Source: Methanosaeta sp. PtaU1.Bin060
GTDB lineage: Archaea; Halobacteriota; Methanosarcinia; Methanotrichales; Methanotrichaceae
DNA: 34,300 nucleotides
Direction: 5' to 3'
Assembly: GCA_002067365.1 (NCBI GenBank)
Contig: MVRK01000063.1
Span: forward strand, 1-34,300
This document shows, one piece after another, positions 8,327 through 15,421 of the stretch. The notes beneath the pieces were generated by a model. The model saw only the letters and a list, made by a program, of their open reading frames with translations, had not been told where the DNA came from and did not search any database. How positions within the stretch are numbered: the stretch's first letter is position 1; every line of letters begins with the position of its first letter. A program made the position numbers and the translations under genes.

Positions 8327-8406
8327 AGCCCCATCATTCTTTATTGACCAAAAGGATGAAGACAACCTCGCCCAAAACCAGGGCAAAATACTTCGGTGGC
8401 ACTAGG

Positions 8407-9039
8407 ATGCGCGGTGAGTTGATCCTGATTCTGATGCTGTTGCTGGCCTGTCCAGCATGGGCTGACCACAATGCAGGAAAGGTTGGCCCCTACAACATAT
8501 CCTTCGATATGAACACCACCCCGGATTACAAGGTCGTAGTCGAGATGCCCTCCCAAGGCACGACTGCCGACGGCGTCGCCTTCACCAGGTACAACCTGTC
8601 CATCGAGAAAGATAACTCCGATTACTTCGCGTGGCTGATCCTGACGGAATATGAGAGGCCGATGATCGCCAACATCACCGCCAACGCCGAGATTGTTGCC
8701 ATAGCCCTTCAGGGGGCGGGGGCGGACCAGCCCAAGTTCTACCAGCCCCTGATCGACGGACAGCCGGGGGTTCTGGGAAGCTTCAGGTTCCAGAGCGAGA
8801 CAAAGGGGGTCCAGCTCGGACAGCAGGTGGCGAATCAGGCCAGCCAGCAGGCCCAGATCGTAGTGGCCGCCAGCTACTCGCCCGACGGCAGGGTCATGGA
8901 GGAGGGATCGTATCGCGGCCGTCTGAACTTCCGGATCATCTCCACCTTTCCCTGGGAGGTGACGAGGGATCTGCTCTACACCCTTCACATCGATGTCCCC
9001 GCAGAGCTGCTCAACTCCTCACTCAACTCTTCGACCTGA
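8407..9039 (+). CDS. Secreted protein of unknown function
   Basis: A 210-residue protein starting at ATG 8407 with a clear signal peptide (MRGELILILMLLLACPAWA, cleavage likely after AWA). The mature part is rich in beta-strand-type sequence and carries several N-x-S/T sites (NIS, NLS, NIT, NSS), consistent with an N-glycosylated exported protein. No domain is recognised. A TTG at 8344 would add 21 basic residues in front of the signal peptide and is less likely. It is 80 bases downstream of pheA on the same strand. An exceptional hairpin lies 50 bases after its stop. Confidence 0.75.
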   Translation: MRGELILILMLLLACPAWADHNAGKVGPYNISFDMNTTPDYKVVVEMPSQGTTADGVAFTRYNLSIEKDNSDYFAWLILTEYERPMIANITANAEIVAIALQGAGADQPKFYQPLIDGQPGVLGSFRFQSETKGVQLGQQVANQASQQAQIVVAASYSPDGRVMEEGSYRGRLNFRIISTFPWEVTRDLLYTLHIDVPAELLNSSLNSST

Positions 9040-9088
9040 TGCGAAGTGACGGCGATGCTCGCCCTCGCCCCAGATCCCTTTGATCGTG

Positions 9089-9115
9089 ATTCCGGCGAAG
9101 AGCTCTTGCCGGAAT
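9089..9115. repeat. Strong nested inverted repeat (stem-loop)
   Basis: ATTCCGGC (9089-9096) pairs perfectly with GCCGGAAT (9108-9115), and the loop itself contains the perfect palindrome AAGAGCTCTT (98-107 of that kilobase), so 13 base pairs can form with one bulged G at 9097. No T-run follows, so a simple terminator is not obvious. It lies inside a 34-codon open frame (9055-9159) of doubtful reality. It may be a processing site, a small RNA or a DNA element. Confidence 0.55.
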
Positions 9116-9251
9116 TGGCCGGCTACATCGAATCTGCCGGGACTCATTTGAGGGGCTAAAGGATAAGGCATCATTTCCCAAGCATTATCAGCACCCTTCA
9201 CCTCATAGAGGGTTCATGTAAACATTAGGTGAAATCTACATAAAAATCATC

Positions 9252-9263
9252 CTTTAATATTTA
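9252..9263 (+). promoter_or_regulatory. Probable TATA box of the Tyr-rich secreted protein gene
   Basis: The run CTTTAATATTTA is centred about 30 bases before ATG 9288, predicting a transcript that starts at or just before that codon, between the two candidate starts. Confidence 0.5.
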
Positions 9264-9287
9264 GGCGATGAGTCTATGTTCGGAGGA

Positions 9288-9734
9288 ATGAATATAGCAA
9301 CCAAATTGATGTTCTTCGTCCTGGCGCTTTCGATGCTTATTGCGTCGGGCGCTGCCCAGGACGGCTCTGGATTCGGACACCCGCCCGGCTACATGGGCGA
9401 TGGAAGTGGCGCCCAAAATGCGGGCGACTGGCAGGATGGCAATGGTGGCGACAGACATCCCGGCGGTGAGAATTGGGGCGATCACCGTCATGACGGCCAT
9501 GATTGGCTGGGCGTTGGAGGGCACACTTACTACTGGTCGTACCCCTCATACTATGATTATGGATGGTATCCCCACTATACATACACGTACTATCCGACAT
9601 ACTACTATTACACCACGCCTGTGGCTCATACAACCTACCAATATGCTCCGCTGAATTACAACTGGTTCGATCCATGGTGGACAGCAAACGTCTACGGTGG
9701 ATCCTACACATTCAGCAGCTGGAGCTGGCTGTAG
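9288..9734 (+). CDS. Secreted Tyr/Trp-rich low-complexity protein
   Basis: A 148-residue exported protein of unknown family. A signal peptide (MNIATKLMFFVLALSML, cleavage near GAA/Q) is followed by a Gly/Asp/His/Asn-rich half and then a segment of 60 residues of which 20 are tyrosine, with many Trp and Pro, in YP, YY and WYPHY-like steps. The composition suggests a structural or adhesive envelope protein, perhaps cross-linked or metal-binding through His/Asp. I prefer ATG 9288 because the TATA box predicts transcription starting near 9284; ATG 9276 would add MFGG. A GGAGG stands only one base before 9288, too close for a usual ribosome site. It is followed by a T-rich bidirectional terminator. 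Confidence 0.7.
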   Translation: MNIATKLMFFVLALSMLIASGAAQDGSGFGHPPGYMGDGSGAQNAGDWQDGNGGDRHPGGENWGDHRHDGHDWLGVGGHTYYWSYPSYYDYGWYPHYTYTYYPTYYYYTTPVAHTTYQYAPLNYNWFDPWWTANVYGGSYTFSSWSWL

Positions 9735-9770
9735 GACTGCTCAACGAATGGTAGTCAGGCGCTACAGTTA

Positions 9771-9805
9771 AATTTTTTAAAAAATATGTTTTTTTCTAAT
9801 TTTTG
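9771..9805. terminator. T/A-rich bidirectional terminator region
   Basis: Between convergent stops the sequence is AATTTTTTAAAAAATATG followed by a run of seven T residues and another T-rich group. T-runs exist on both strands, which suits termination of the plus-strand Tyr-rich gene and of the minus-strand gene pair. Confidence 0.5.
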
Positions 9806-9838
9806 AGATTTTGATTTCGAAATATCGGCTTTGAGACC

Positions 9839-10234
9839 TTAGTCAGATTTGAAAAATCGCCAATCTGGCTGCTGCATGGCGTGCCTTATCTTCATCTCCA
9901 TGGCCGAAGACACAGGATAATTTCCGTCCTCATGGCCCACCTGCATCAGATCATCCTCGTCCATGTCAAGGGCGCTGTGATCCAAAACAAATGTCGAGGT
10001 TGCTGCCAGGTCTCCTGCCGTTATGATGGTGATCATGAGCCTCGTCCTCCTCTCGGCTATGTTGATGAAGAAGTAAGAGGCACCCTGCAGCTCCTCTAGC
10101 CTCTGTCCCAGAAGCTGGTAATCCTTAAGGGAGCGCACCTGGGTGAGGGCGAAAGCCTCGTCGAGGCTCAGGTCGAACATCACCCTCTCTGAATCGAAGA
10201 GAACCCTCTCAGGCTGAGCAAAGATGAGAGACAT
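9839..10234 (-). CDS. Hypothetical soluble protein (131 aa)
   Basis: No family is recognised. The body (MSLIFAQPERVLFDSERVMF onward) alternates strands and helices, has no membrane span, and contains an acidic patch DHSALDMDEDDL near residues 88-99. I start at ATG 10234 because GGAGGT precedes it by three bases and the sequence upstream looks non-coding; ATG 10306 or TTG 10309 would lengthen it by 24-25 residues. It lies about 100 bases (27 for the longer form) behind the lipocalin-like gene on the same strand and is probably co-transcribed. It may act with that exported protein, but nothing in the sequence shows how. Confidence 0.6.
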   Translation of the reverse strand: MSLIFAQPERVLFDSERVMFDLSLDEAFALTQVRSLKDYQLLGQRLEELQGASYFFINIAERRTRLMITIITAGDLAATSTFVLDHSALDMDEDDLMQVGHEDGNYPVSSAMEMKIRHAMQQPDWRFFKSD

Positions 10235-10333
10235 GAGACCTCCACAAGCCATCCAAGCGCCATTTCGCAAGACATCCCATTGCGGTCCAAGAGCGCACAT
10301 CCCCATCAAAAAGCAGGAAAAGGATTTTTGAGG

Positions 10334-11902
10334 TCAAAGACTCAGATCCACCTCCTGCCTGTCCTTGCCGAGGTCAGCCAGGATCTCTAAGCTCTTCGAC
10401 CTTCCGGCTTCGTCCCTGACCTCCAGCAGGACTGTGTCGCCCGTCGATATCCAGGGTGCATCGCTCTTTGCCAGATAGTCTGCATAATTGGAGTCGATGC
10501 TGAACCAGCCGTCCGCACTCGTTTCTGCTGTCTTGACACGGCTCGTCCTCTCGTTGGTGGCAGTAACTGTGAAGTTGATGGCCGATGTGTTGATGGCGCT
10601 GGCTGCTATAGCACTGGCGACTCCTGTCGCATTAGCTCCCGCACTATCAGCCACACTCTCGCCCGAGGCTGTTATGTTGGCAGCGATCGCATTTGCTGCA
10701 GTCAGGTCTGAATCTGTGACATTCGAGCCTGTGATGTTTGAGGCTGCGATTTTATTCGATGTCTCATTCGCGCTTTCGCCAGCTGTGACCCTCCCAAAGA
10801 TGGGGTGCAGCCTGTGAGTCGTGTACTCGGAGAAGCCCAGCTCATCGAAACTATAAACCACGGACGCCCGCGTTCTCAGGATTCCCCGGAAGCGGGAGAA
10901 CTGCTCGAAGATCACATAGCTTGGCTCCGGCGGCGGGTAGCTTACCAGCAGTGGCACACTCTTTTCGGCTTTAATGGTCAGATCGAGCTGGTAGTCTCCG
11001 TTCTCTGCCTGCACCCTGTAGCCTTGAGGATAGATTCTAGCAGTCGTCTGGTCGAAGGCAAAATCGGTGTAAGTGAGCTTTATCTGCTCTCCTGTGAACT
11101 TGATGAGGTCTTTACCGTACCTCACTCCGAGCATCGTGTTTCGCTCCTCACCAAGGATGTCGCCAAAAGTCAAGCTGAAGCCCTTGGCAGGGTCGGAAAC
11201 CTCTGCCCAGTTCCACTGGGGGTCGTTGAAGGCCCACCTTCCCCAGTTGTGATCATGGTAGCCCACAGCCGCGATCTCAAGGGTCCTCTCACCAAGGGTG
11301 AGAGTTCCTGTGACGTTGCCAGATGGGATGTAAACCAGCCACTTCATCCAATCCCCTTTGAGATGGCCGACATTGGCCTGAACAGGCGTCGCAAACCAGG
11401 GGGAGATGGCCGCAATGTACTGCAGGTCCCACCGGATGGGCTCTCTTGTGATGACGTCGTTCACCAAGCCCCAGACATTGAAGCTTCTGCCGTCCTGAGA
11501 GGAGATGCCGCTCTGGTCGATGTCCACATTCGGGCCGTTCTTATCTCCTCCGAAACCCCTGCTCTGCTGTATCCCGATAACTGGTGGCTTGCCGTCCTCC
11601 AGGACGACAGCTAGGACCTGAAGCTTCCGAAGCCCCGTCACATTCTCAGGATCGCTGATGAAGTAGCTGACAAGGAACTGAGTCTCATTCGAGATCCCAT
11701 TGAAGTACCACCACTCGTTGTAGATTTTGTCATCGATGCCGCTGTGCATATAGTGGTAGCCATCGTCCTTCAAAGAGGCATCCGCAGCAGCTCCTGTGCC
11801 GGATAGTATAGAAACAGTTACGGCCATCAAGACAGGCATCACCATCATCATCGCCTGAAACAAGCTTATGCAAAAGAGGCCTTGAGCCTTTCTCGTCCTC
11901 AT
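10334..11902 (-). CDS. CrtC/AttH-like lipocalin-domain secreted protein
   Basis: A 522-residue exported protein. After a long hydrophobic N-terminus (about 8-40, ending GTGAAADA) it shows the hydroxyneurosporene synthase/AttH pattern: YNEWWYFNG at 61-69 and YHDHNWGRW near 215-223, the paired beta-barrel motifs of the PF07143/Lipocalin_9 type. Such proteins are thought to bind or hydrate hydrophobic ligands; no carotenoid genes are nearby, so a substrate cannot be named. Residues about 375-450 are an Ala/Asn/Thr/Ser repeat with many N-x-S/T sites, inserted between the barrel and a C-terminal beta domain. A TATA-like TTATATTTT sits near 11966-11975, and GGAGGGAG precedes ATG 11902, so I prefer this to the longer starts at 11962 or 11968. 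Confidence 0.8.
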   Translation of the reverse strand: MRTRKAQGLFCISLFQAMMMVMPVLMAVTVSILSGTGAAADASLKDDGYHYMHSGIDDKIYNEWWYFNGISNETQFLVSYFISDPENVTGLRKLQVLAVVLEDGKPPVIGIQQSRGFGGDKNGPNVDIDQSGISSQDGRSFNVWGLVNDVITREPIRWDLQYIAAISPWFATPVQANVGHLKGDWMKWLVYIPSGNVTGTLTLGERTLEIAAVGYHDHNWGRWAFNDPQWNWAEVSDPAKGFSLTFGDILGEERNTMLGVRYGKDLIKFTGEQIKLTYTDFAFDQTTARIYPQGYRVQAENGDYQLDLTIKAEKSVPLLVSYPPPEPSYVIFEQFSRFRGILRTRASVVYSFDELGFSEYTTHRLHPIFGRVTAGESANETSNKIAASNITGSNVTDSDLTAANAIAANITASGESVADSAGANATGVASAIAASAINTSAINFTVTATNERTSRVKTAETSADGWFSIDSNYADYLAKSDAPWISTGDTVLLEVRDEAGRSKSLEILADLGKDRQEVDLSL

Positions 11903-12065
11903 CCTCGAATTCTCCCTCCAGGCCGCCAGCCAGAGAGAGGCTGACGTCTCTGATTGATGCATTCTCAAAATATAACTATTTTTTCAGACAAAGACAATCC
12001 CTTCAAAGGGCTATCATTTCAATGGCGATCTCCCCATTCAAGAGTGGCACTTCATCTCGGCCTTA

Positions 12066-12604: not shown

Positions 12605-13207
12605 ATGTCCGATTCTCTCATTCTTTTTGCCCTGCTGGCTCTGCTGCTGATCACAGCCATCTACTTCATCACCATCTACAACAGGCTCCAGAGCTTGAAG
12701 AACGGGGCAGAGGCCACCCTTTCTCAGATCAGGGTGGCGATGAAGAAGAGACTGGACATGATCGAGCAGCTTGTCGATTCTGTAAAGAGCTATGCCAAGT
12801 TCGAGAGGGATACCCTAGAGAAGATCACCAGCATGAGGACCAATCTTGTGAGTGCGAGACCCGACGAGCTGGCAAAGATCAACGGCGTCAGCAGAGGGCT
12901 GGTGGGCGATGTTCTGGCTGTCGCTGAGGGCTATCCTCAGCTCAAAACCTCCGAAGCTGTTACTGCTACAATGAACGCCATCAAGGATGTGGAGGACGAG
13001 ATCTCCAGATACAGATACACTTACAATAATATAATCCAGGAGTTCAATACCATGCGGGTCACTGTGCCGTCCAATATGGTCGCATCATTCTCAGGAATGC
13101 ACAAGATGGACTACCTGAACTTCGAGGAGGACGAGCTGAAAAGGCGGGGATATCTGACCACTGAGGGCGAGCTTGAGCCCGGAAGGCCCGAGGTAAAATG
13201 GGATTGA
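12605..13207 (+). CDS. lemA: LemA family protein
   Basis: A 200-residue membrane-anchored protein. One N-terminal span (about 5-24) is followed by the all-helical LemA domain: IYNRLQSLKNGAEATLSQIRVAMKKR, the DMIEQLVDSVKSYAKFE helix, a central helix with YPQLK, and ISRYRYTYNNIIQEFNTM near the C-terminus. Function in archaea is unsettled; LemA genes are often paired with TPM/DUF2207-type membrane proteins, and here a DUF2207 gene lies convergently 125 bases away. The start is leaderless by its distance from the TATA box. Confidence 0.93.
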   Translation: MSDSLILFALLALLLITAIYFITIYNRLQSLKNGAEATLSQIRVAMKKRLDMIEQLVDSVKSYAKFERDTLEKITSMRTNLVSARPDELAKINGVSRGLVGDVLAVAEGYPQLKTSEAVTATMNAIKDVEDEISRYRYTYNNIIQEFNTMRVTVPSNMVASFSGMHKMDYLNFEEDELKRRGYLTTEGELEPGRPEVKWD

Positions 13208-13331
13208 GAAAGATACTGCAACCCTGTTGATAGGGGGTGCCGCAGGCCAGGGCCTTCCCTTGGGACGATGATCACCGGAACCCAGGATATTCTTGTGGCC
13301 TGCCCGTATCAATCTTGAAAAAGAGAAGAGT

Positions 13332-15218
13332 TCACCTTGCGCCTCCACCGCCGCCACCTGATCCGCCACCGCCTCCAAATCCGCCTCCAGATCCACCGCC
13401 ATCTGAACCGCTGGATCTAGGTGCACTCGATGCATAGGCATGATCGAAGTGGGTATGCATGACGCCTACGCTGCCCGCTGCGACGGCTATTGGAATATTG
13501 ATATTCATCTCATCCATCGCCTTCTCTACGTTGTCTCCAACGCCCAGAGCAGTCCCATAGATCAGCCAATCCTTCCAGATGTTTATATCTTCAGGTACGT
13601 ATTTTTTTATCATGGCGAAGTCGGACAGGAAGTTCCTGAAGGCGTCCCATTCCAGCTTTTCCTTGTAGTAGTCCCCCTTCCATCTGCCGAAGAGTGCCGA
13701 AGGGGCGAATGCTGGGACCAAAGACTGAACCAGCAGGATCGCTATCGTCGCTGGTATCGGCTTGCTCAATAAGCCCACGATTAAAGAGCCAAACACAAAG
13801 AGAATGATAGCAATATAATAAAACGTTGTGAACATCGATTTTGCGCTGCCAGGGCGCGAGATGCCCAATGCCCTCAAGCTTCTGCCTGACACAAACATGC
13901 CGGGGATCTCGGGATCTTTATACCTGAACAGGTTGTTCAAGGTATTGCGGATCTCCTTGAGCTTTGAATTATCACTCTCTCTGGATCGGCTCCAAGATTC
14001 GACCATCCCCTCGAAGACACCGGCATCGAAGACCCCATTATAAGAGTATTTTTCAAGGAAGCTCAGTACGGCCTTCACATACTCATCATCCCCAGCCTCA
14101 TCAGCTTTGAGAATTCTTAATCTCGTGCCTGTTGCACTATCGATATCGATTATCTTTCGCTCATACAGATCCAGCAGTGTGGCATAAAATCCATCCCTAT
14201 CGAAATCAAAGCTGTCGCCCTTGAAGACATAGTTCACCAGCCAGGGTTTTCTTTTGCTCGGAAGATAGCTAAGAACACTTGGGACAGTGAACCTCTTCTC
14301 TCTGCCAAAGATGTAGAAGTAAAATGCCAAAGCTAACGGAAAGAGGATGACCAGAGCCCTCAGCACCTTGAGAATAATCAAGTCCAACATAGAGCCCTGG
14401 GCGGAGAGGGTTTTGTTATATATGTCGGAAATATACCTCGGGAAGCCGCCTATGAGATTGGAGACCTCGGGTTTGAGCAGCATCTCCACCTCAATCAGGG
14501 AGTCCTCAGGGCTGTAGCCTGTCATGACCCACGAATCGCCTGCCTTCTCGGCAGCCATGGACATATGAGGGAAGAGCCGAAGAATTAGGTTATCAGGATC
14601 GTGGATGGTTATCGTCGCCTGCCTGTAGAGAAGATGCTTGTCTGCGATCATCAGGTTCCAGTGCCAATATACATCGTCCCTCTCGATGGGCGGATGAATC
14701 CTGAAGATATAGCTTATCTGATACCTGCCCGGGCTCAGGTAATCAGGCTTAAAACATCCCGCCTCGCTGGGCAATGCAAGGGAGCGAATCGCGTTATTGT
14801 TGTCTGTAGAGCCAGTGCCTCCAGAAATGATGCTCACAGATCCGGAGCTGTTCTTCAGGTAGGCGATGGTACCTGAAGGCTGGCTGATATTTATCAGCTC
14901 GACATAAGGCCTATTGAGTTCCCCGAGAGAGAGGGGCAGCTTCCAGTTTCTATACAGCATTCTATATTTATCGCTGTCCACCTGATAAACGAAGCTCTCT
15001 ATGATGGTGCCATTCAGATAAACGTCGGCGCTGTACTCATCAACATATATGCCGTTGCTGAGCATGGCCCCAATCATGCTCCCAACAGAGTTGCCAAAGG
15101 TGCCTGGAACCCCTCCGGTGAGACCGAGCCCTACAGCGCCTATGAGAAAAACAGCAAAAACCGCCAAAGCTGCCTGTTGATTCTCACTCAGGCCCATTTC
15201 CGCTTTATTTAAACGCAT
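13332..15218 (-). CDS. DUF2207 predicted membrane protein
   Basis: A 628-residue membrane protein. The N-terminus has one span (about 16-36), then an extracytoplasmic beta-rich domain with DUF2207 features (residues about 55-265, IYVDEYSADVYLNG onward), a span near 285-305 (ILKVLRALVILFPLALAFYFYIFG), a cytoplasmic region, two further spans near 465-510, and a tail of almost pure Gly/Ser (SDGGGSGGGFGGGGG-like). That GGG tail is typical of the family. I choose ATG 15218 with GGTGG just upstream; TTG 15263 would add 15 residues. It faces lemA, with which DUF2207 genes are commonly associated. Role unknown, probably envelope-related. Confidence 0.88.
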   Translation of the reverse strand: MRLNKAEMGLSENQQAALAVFAVFLIGAVGLGLTGGVPGTFGNSVGSMIGAMLSNGIYVDEYSADVYLNGTIIESFVYQVDSDKYRMLYRNWKLPLSLGELNRPYVELINISQPSGTIAYLKNSSGSVSIISGGTGSTDNNNAIRSLALPSEAGCFKPDYLSPGRYQISYIFRIHPPIERDDVYWHWNLMIADKHLLYRQATITIHDPDNLILRLFPHMSMAAEKAGDSWVMTGYSPEDSLIEVEMLLKPEVSNLIGGFPRYISDIYNKTLSAQGSMLDLIILKVLRALVILFPLALAFYFYIFGREKRFTVPSVLSYLPSKRKPWLVNYVFKGDSFDFDRDGFYATLLDLYERKIIDIDSATGTRLRILKADEAGDDEYVKAVLSFLEKYSYNGVFDAGVFEGMVESWSRSRESDNSKLKEIRNTLNNLFRYKDPEIPGMFVSGRSLRALGISRPGSAKSMFTTFYYIAIILFVFGSLIVGLLSKPIPATIAILLVQSLVPAFAPSALFGRWKGDYYKEKLEWDAFRNFLSDFAMIKKYVPEDINIWKDWLIYGTALGVGDNVEKAMDEMNINIPIAVAAGSVGVMHTHFDHAYASSAPRSSGSDGGGSGGGFGGGGGSGGGGGGAR

Positions 15219-15421
15219 CCATCCACCACGGAATCGAAGTTTTTTTGCCCCCGTCACCTTCAATCTCCCTAAAATAATTGCATCACTATTTAGATATTTC
15301 GTATTACGAGAGATTCATCAATCAAATAGATTAGACATTGAAACATGAGTCGATGCTGTTTGCCGCTAGATCCTCATCATTTGGCGCAAGGTTCTTTATG
15401 CCCGCTAGGGGATAATTCTCT

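Follow-up and report, generated by a model that had tools for sequence, protein, structure and literature searches.

An exported tyrosine-rich protein family of the Methanotrichaceae with a conserved promoter block and a possible non-AUG start codon

The tyrosine-rich gene and its partner

The window, a stretch of 34,300 nucleotides from Methanosaeta sp. PtaU1.Bin060, carries at positions 9288–9734 an open reading frame of 148 codons with a predicted mature chain of 125 amino acids. This gene, its partner gene and the sequence elements mapped on and around the two lie on the forward strand. Its product opens with a predicted signal peptide (MNIATKLMFFVLALSMLIASGAA, 9288–9356), probably cleaved by a type I enzyme after GAA and ahead of QD, whose hydrophobic core and positive n-region are kept in homologues. 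It is followed by a Gly/Asp/His/Asn-rich segment (9357–9500) of variable length, about 20–69 amino acids among homologues, and by an aromatic C-terminal segment that starts with DWL (9501–9731) and contains 20 Tyr and no Cys, Lys, Arg or Glu. Altogether the mature chain comprises 21 Tyr, 10 Trp, 9 Pro and 3 Phe; Gly accounts for 18 of the 55 residues of its first half, together with Asp and His, and Tyr makes up more than one quarter of the C-terminal part. The earlier note had described a signal peptide, a Gly/His/Asp-rich half and 20 tyrosines within 60 residues of an aromatic C-terminal segment, all of which are found in this frame, the densest 60-residue span being residues 81–140. Its claim of an unusual composition likewise holds: across 400 kb from the complete genome of a relative, 12 Tyr per 60 residues were not reached by any frame on either strand, which argues against ordinary composition as the source of this density.

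Across the family, the aligned proteins share one order of elements, i. e. a signal peptide with an n-region Lys, a polar spacer, DWL[NS]P, a Tyr/Pro/Thr/Ser region, the signature DPW[WY]xANxYG and a tail. The window protein has the complete feature set of this family (family A), including a DPWWTANVYG signature at 9669–9698, and lacks part of the family tail TYYYSSSWSWS...GGFFF. From DWL to the end, full-length homologues measure 77–98 amino acids, commonly 84–88; across homologues, this segment is 36–42% aromatic, nearly devoid of charged residues and without a conserved Cys. AlphaFold2 with 20 sequences returned no usable model (pLDDT 50, pTM 0.13, no secondary structure), and the chain may lack order by itself or gain it solely within an assembly. 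T-runs past the stop codon (9773–9795), a possible archaeal terminator, are absent from most homologues.

Directly upstream lies a partner gene (8404–9039) that encodes an exported protein of unknown family. Its AlphaFold2 model is a mostly β-strand domain (pLDDT 82); the fold search with this model gave no significant PDB match (best E 0.065), and no Pfam family was found. In every homologous locus with sufficient contig, spanning four genera, an ortholog of the partner is found directly upstream on the same strand, while the remaining neighbourhood of the tyrosine-rich gene changes between loci. One genome (G005) has the partner alone, and another (G039) lacks both genes. The two genes at 9839–10309 and 10334–11968 stand beside the tyrosine-rich gene in three further genomes (G003, G021, G047) as well; the latter encodes an exported 544-residue protein that contains an Ala/Asn-rich insert and matches CrtC-lipocalin below the threshold. 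Elsewhere in the window (12605–15263), a gene for a LemA-family protein adjoins one for a DUF2207 membrane protein with a Gly/Ser-rich tail end.

Distribution in the Methanotrichaceae

The tyrosine-rich gene is real and conserved. Homologues were detected in 26 of 50 Methanotrichaceae genomes with a single-sequence search and in 29 of 50, from five of eleven genera, with a family profile; a class-wide search of 238 genomes gave none in the 188 genomes outside the family. Where relatives belong to named genomes, these are metagenome-assembled genomes of Methanothrix, Methanosaeta and Methanotrichaceae, in agreement with a Methanothrix-like organism. A scan of genome contigs with the single protein gave no match, and the same scan with an alignment as query retrieved 20 loci. 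Viral contigs yielded no relative, and neither the single sequence nor the family profile found a Pfam, NCBIfam or PDB relative or a catalytic family. The earlier note would have been refuted by a frame that is not conserved or by homologues without a signal peptide. The frame is kept across at least four genera, and all full-length homologues possess a signal peptide-like N-terminus, so that neither refutation applies. A median dN/dS of 0.23 (76 pairs) indicates that the protein is under purifying selection. Five of the eleven genera (g3, g5, g6, g7 and g11) gave no relative of family A or of the C-type described below, genus g9 has short diverged relatives only, which are without the promoter block, and G039, a nearly complete genome of the same genus as the window, lacks the gene. 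Hence, the gene is not essential to a sheath.

Promoter block and start region

A conserved promoter/operator block (9208–9261) precedes the gene. In relatives it spans 55 bp, 25 of whose 55 columns are invariant in 21 homologues from four genera, and in its own genome it is the only site within three mismatches of the 22-nt core pattern. The block includes an imperfect 26-bp palindrome ATGTAAACATTAGGTGAAATCTACAT (9216–9241), the likely site of a putative dimeric regulator, and a TATA box TTTAATA (9253–9259) located 41 nt before the ATA codon discussed below (41–45 nt in the family). With the usual archaeal geometry, this spacing predicts a transcription start about 12 nt ahead of the ATH codon (ATA, ATC or ATT), at the Shine-Dalgarno sequence. 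The dyad symmetry of the palindrome pairs 83% of cells, compared to 15–54% when slid. A reading as an RNA hairpin was rejected in favour of a DNA operator, since the palindrome sits ahead of the TATA box and shows no more covariation than shuffles do. Positions 9000–9900 had no Rfam match and thus contain no known riboswitch or leader RNA. A scan for sigma-70-type promoters found none, as expected in an archaeon.

Searched with a profile of the block (R1), nearly every genome that carries the gene with an intact upstream region gave its best score at the tyrosine-rich gene. Weaker matches precede other exported, aromatic-rich genes: B-type proteins (YFDPWWxANIYGPxRTTYYW) in G026, G035 and G022, a Tyr-rich protein in G001, a C-type protein (DWLSP, then YYYP runs) in G028, members of another exported family, marked by the motif WPWWxGGYT, in G002, G006 and G046, and an exported protein in G024 whose likeness to SIMPL was read from its sequence. 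Weak matches at unrelated places (G017:C90:49015 and G030:C17) are probably due to chance. A second profile (R2), built partly from the weaker R1 sites, picked up one further B-type site, in G017 (E 8e-8) and outside its building set, as well as weak, correctly placed sites before C-type genes of the window's own genome (G000:C115, E 0.07) and of G018 (E 0.44), both likewise outside that set. What suggests a shared promoter class is that genes of one kind turn up repeatedly behind separate sites, the weak E-values being no argument by themselves.

Several of these proteins deserve mention in their own right. The C-type gene of the own genome (G000:C115:42541–42941, L135) encodes a second exported Tyr-rich protein (HDWLSTGSYWHPYYNYRYYYYPYYSYYYPYYY); the promoter profile matches weakly upstream of it, and its conserved start column reads ATG. 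Genus g8, another genus of the Methanotrichaceae, contains a set of C-type Tyr-rich DWLSP proteins (L262, L264, L265, L267, L268, L270 and L272–L274), whose genes are sometimes neighbours, as in G013, where one of the two copies has ATG at the start column and its neighbour ATT. The WPWWxGGYT family is represented by L118, L119 and L126 (WFYGPxPGxYKVWYxIxGVYxSNYxWYYVxxDWPWWxGGYT), all of them preceded by related promoter sites. Its domain has relatives in 44 of the 50 Methanotrichaceae genomes, and L118 apparently starts with ATC, 7 nt after GGAGG.

In the tyrosine-rich family itself, the Shine-Dalgarno sequence GGAGG (9282–9286 in the window) is the same in every homologue whose start region is intact. 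All 25 of these, L073 included, have an in-frame ATH codon after it (ATC in 14, ATT in eight, ATA in three, ATG in none), at a spacing of 7 nt, or 8 nt in three homologues. The codons past it show coding-type substitution (Ile ATA/ATC/ATT, Lys AAA/AAG). In the window, the proposed start codon is ATA (9294–9296), 7 nt after GGAGG, with ATG 9288 and ATG 9276 as alternatives; the former lies 1 nt from GGAGG. By comparison with the relatives, ATA 9294 is the more likely start over ATG 9288, and the mature protein is identical with either.

Initiation could instead take place at an upstream in-frame ATG or GTG, or at a downstream ATG, so that the ATH codon would merely be a conserved isoleucine. 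Such upstream codons (ATG, GTG or TTG) do exist in 12 of the 25 homologues, and most have an ATG or TTG 15–30 nt downstream. However, 11 of the 25, related sequences rather than independent cases, carry TAA or TGA in frame immediately ahead of the ATH codon, which makes an upstream start impossible, a canonical upstream start is absent from 13, and by the TATA spacing most upstream ATGs would fall outside the mRNA. Downstream codons, in turn, are in nearly all cases at least 22 nt from GGAGG, and their use would drop the n-region Lys. In L026, downstream candidates are lacking as well: no ATG, GTG or TTG occurs within 36 nt after the ATH codon, and starting still later would cost the protein most of its signal peptide; here and in L011 the n-region Lys is lost and a Lys is found at the second codon instead. 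Furthermore, paralogues have ATG in the column of the ATH codon: the B-type paralogue L122 carries ATG at the same distance from GGAGG, as does the C-type gene of the own genome (C115) in the same start column, where the C-type genes of G018, G023 and G037 have ATT. Initiation at a canonical codon is thus regarded as unlikely, and the DNA points to a conserved non-AUG start in the tyrosine-rich family. AUH starts do not look like a genome-wide habit in a 400-kb sample of G016, in which seven ATH cases, most of them implausible as starts, were seen among 151 GGAGG sites.

A known gene with an AUU start is the bacterial infC. As in infC-type genes, a strong Shine-Dalgarno sequence is combined with AUU or a sister codon at normal distance, and the arrangement is conserved across species; unlike infC, the present case is archaeal, concerns surface proteins that are exported, not an initiation factor, and is read from the DNA only. 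The leader of Pyrococcus abyssi aEF1A (AUUUGGAGGUGAUUUAAAUG) provides a Shine-Dalgarno/start layout for comparison, which the tyrosine-rich start region matches in spacing, AUC standing where aEF1A has AUG (PMC6237735). In archaea, aIF1 helps to discriminate against non-canonical start codons (PMC6237735). Speculatively, a non-AUG start behind a strong Shine-Dalgarno sequence, if real, may cap or regulate translation, with aIF1 as a possible means of tuning the output.

Possible roles at the cell surface

The role that best explains the tyrosine-rich protein is that of a low-charge, aromatic-rich matrix protein which is secreted into the Methanothrix envelope and not anchored there, a reading to which we assign a probability of about one half. 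Production would be set by a dedicated promoter of the class that also precedes other exported aromatic-rich proteins, with translation probably beginning at AUC, AUU or AUA behind the strong Shine-Dalgarno sequence. The chain would be exported by the general secretory route, lose its signal peptide and come to lie outside the membrane without an anchor. There, the Tyr/Trp/Pro segment (TYTYTYPTYYYT, DPWWxANVYG, SWSW) could associate with itself or pack against the envelope via β-strand and aromatic contacts, while the Gly/Asp/His segment may act as a flexible hydrophilic spacer. The mature protein would most likely coat, glue or fill the envelope, be it the sheath, the septal plug or the space between, and the exported partner encoded upstream is probably an assembly or anchoring factor.

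Eukaryotic eggshell, mussel-glue and silk-like proteins are Tyr/Trp/Gly-rich materials with structural or adhesive function. Like the tyrosine-rich protein, they are secreted chains of low complexity in which Tyr and Gly predominate, yet there is no sequence relation, the Pfam profile Chorion_3 giving an insignificant E of 0.26. In a strict anaerobe, tyrosines are unlikely to be cross-linked by oxidation. Conceivably, the same Tyr/Trp/Pro/Gly composition, which recalls adhesive and eggshell-type proteins, could suit an adhesin, or a glue on the surface, by which the cells aggregate with their partners; the protein would then not be a structural component of the envelope itself. This option cannot be separated from a matrix protein by sequence, but it comes without a recognizable binding domain and is considered a rather small prospect. 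It is slightly more doubtful that the protein binds metals or ligands at the surface, with Zn, Cu, Fe or Ni held by the His/Asp-rich segment while the aromatic one serves as the anchor to the envelope. Most homologues do have a variable His/Asp-rich segment (GHDGHDG, HHHDH); however, with its roughly 20–69 amino acids it has no fixed His spacing, it shrinks to six residues in the B-type paralogue L027, and neither a conserved Cys nor a metal motif is present.

The earlier note had also raised charge transport through packed aromatics. In such a reading, stacked tyrosines in a β assembly would carry charge to or from partners during direct interspecies electron transfer (DIET). In line with this, the Tyr/Trp density is very high, with alternating TYTYTY stretches, aromatic conduction has been proposed for the sheath protein MspA with its 10.7% aromatic residues, and hole hopping via tyrosines in amyloid crystals is cited in the same work (PMC10470525). 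Against it, a redox cofactor motif and a predicted ordered structure are both missing, and M. thermoacetophila performs DIET (PMC10470525), yet genus g9, to which its probable genome G046 belongs, shows only short diverged relatives without the promoter block. No sequence feature argues specifically for conduction, which is possible in principle and overall highly improbable.

Returning to the envelope matrix protein, an association with the sheath or plug is possible. It is made plausible by the restriction of the family to a group with universal sheath proteins, the SH proteins being present throughout the order that includes the Methanotrichaceae (PMC11576556). Like the SH proteins and MspA of Methanothrix/Methanospirillum, the tyrosine-rich protein is exported in Methanotrichaceae and has a raised aromatic content; no bacterial relatives of SH proteins have been reported (PMC10470525, PMC11576556). 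SH proteins possess a folded amyloid-like core of two six-stranded antiparallel β-sheets together with cap domains, and MspA has a mass of 60.9 kDa (PMC6242892). In contrast, the tyrosine-rich protein has a mature chain of 125 amino acids, about 40% of it polar spacer, which would leave little room for such a core, and a C-terminal part that is 36–42% aromatic across its family. AlphaFold2 predicted no two-sheet core, although at a low confidence that makes this weak evidence of absence. The structural or adhesive envelope role put forward in the earlier note stands as the best guess for a family seen only in Methanotrichaceae, while the link it drew to the proteinaceous sheath has to accommodate that the described sheath proteins, SH and MspA, are of a different kind.

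Taken together, the tyrosine-rich protein is probably an undescribed building material of the cell surface in the Methanothrix group. On a broader and somewhat more tentative level, three or more kinds of secreted aromatic-rich proteins that share one promoter class, and of which several would depend strictly on AUU, AUC or AUA as start codon, may constitute an undescribed envelope programme of the Methanotrichaceae. This conserved, apparently co-regulated set offers specific candidates for a part in the envelope matrix, in adhesion or in conduction. For annotation, gene callers limited to ATG, GTG and TTG would put the start in the wrong place or cut the signal peptide short. The AUH codon in every homologue and the frequent stops directly before it provide a natural test system for archaeal non-AUG initiation; if true, near-cognate initiation would be a conserved, gene-specific control in an archaeon. 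Likewise, if the proposed role is true, the tyrosine-rich proteins would represent a new biological material of a sheathed cell, possibly a filament built as a tyrosine ladder.
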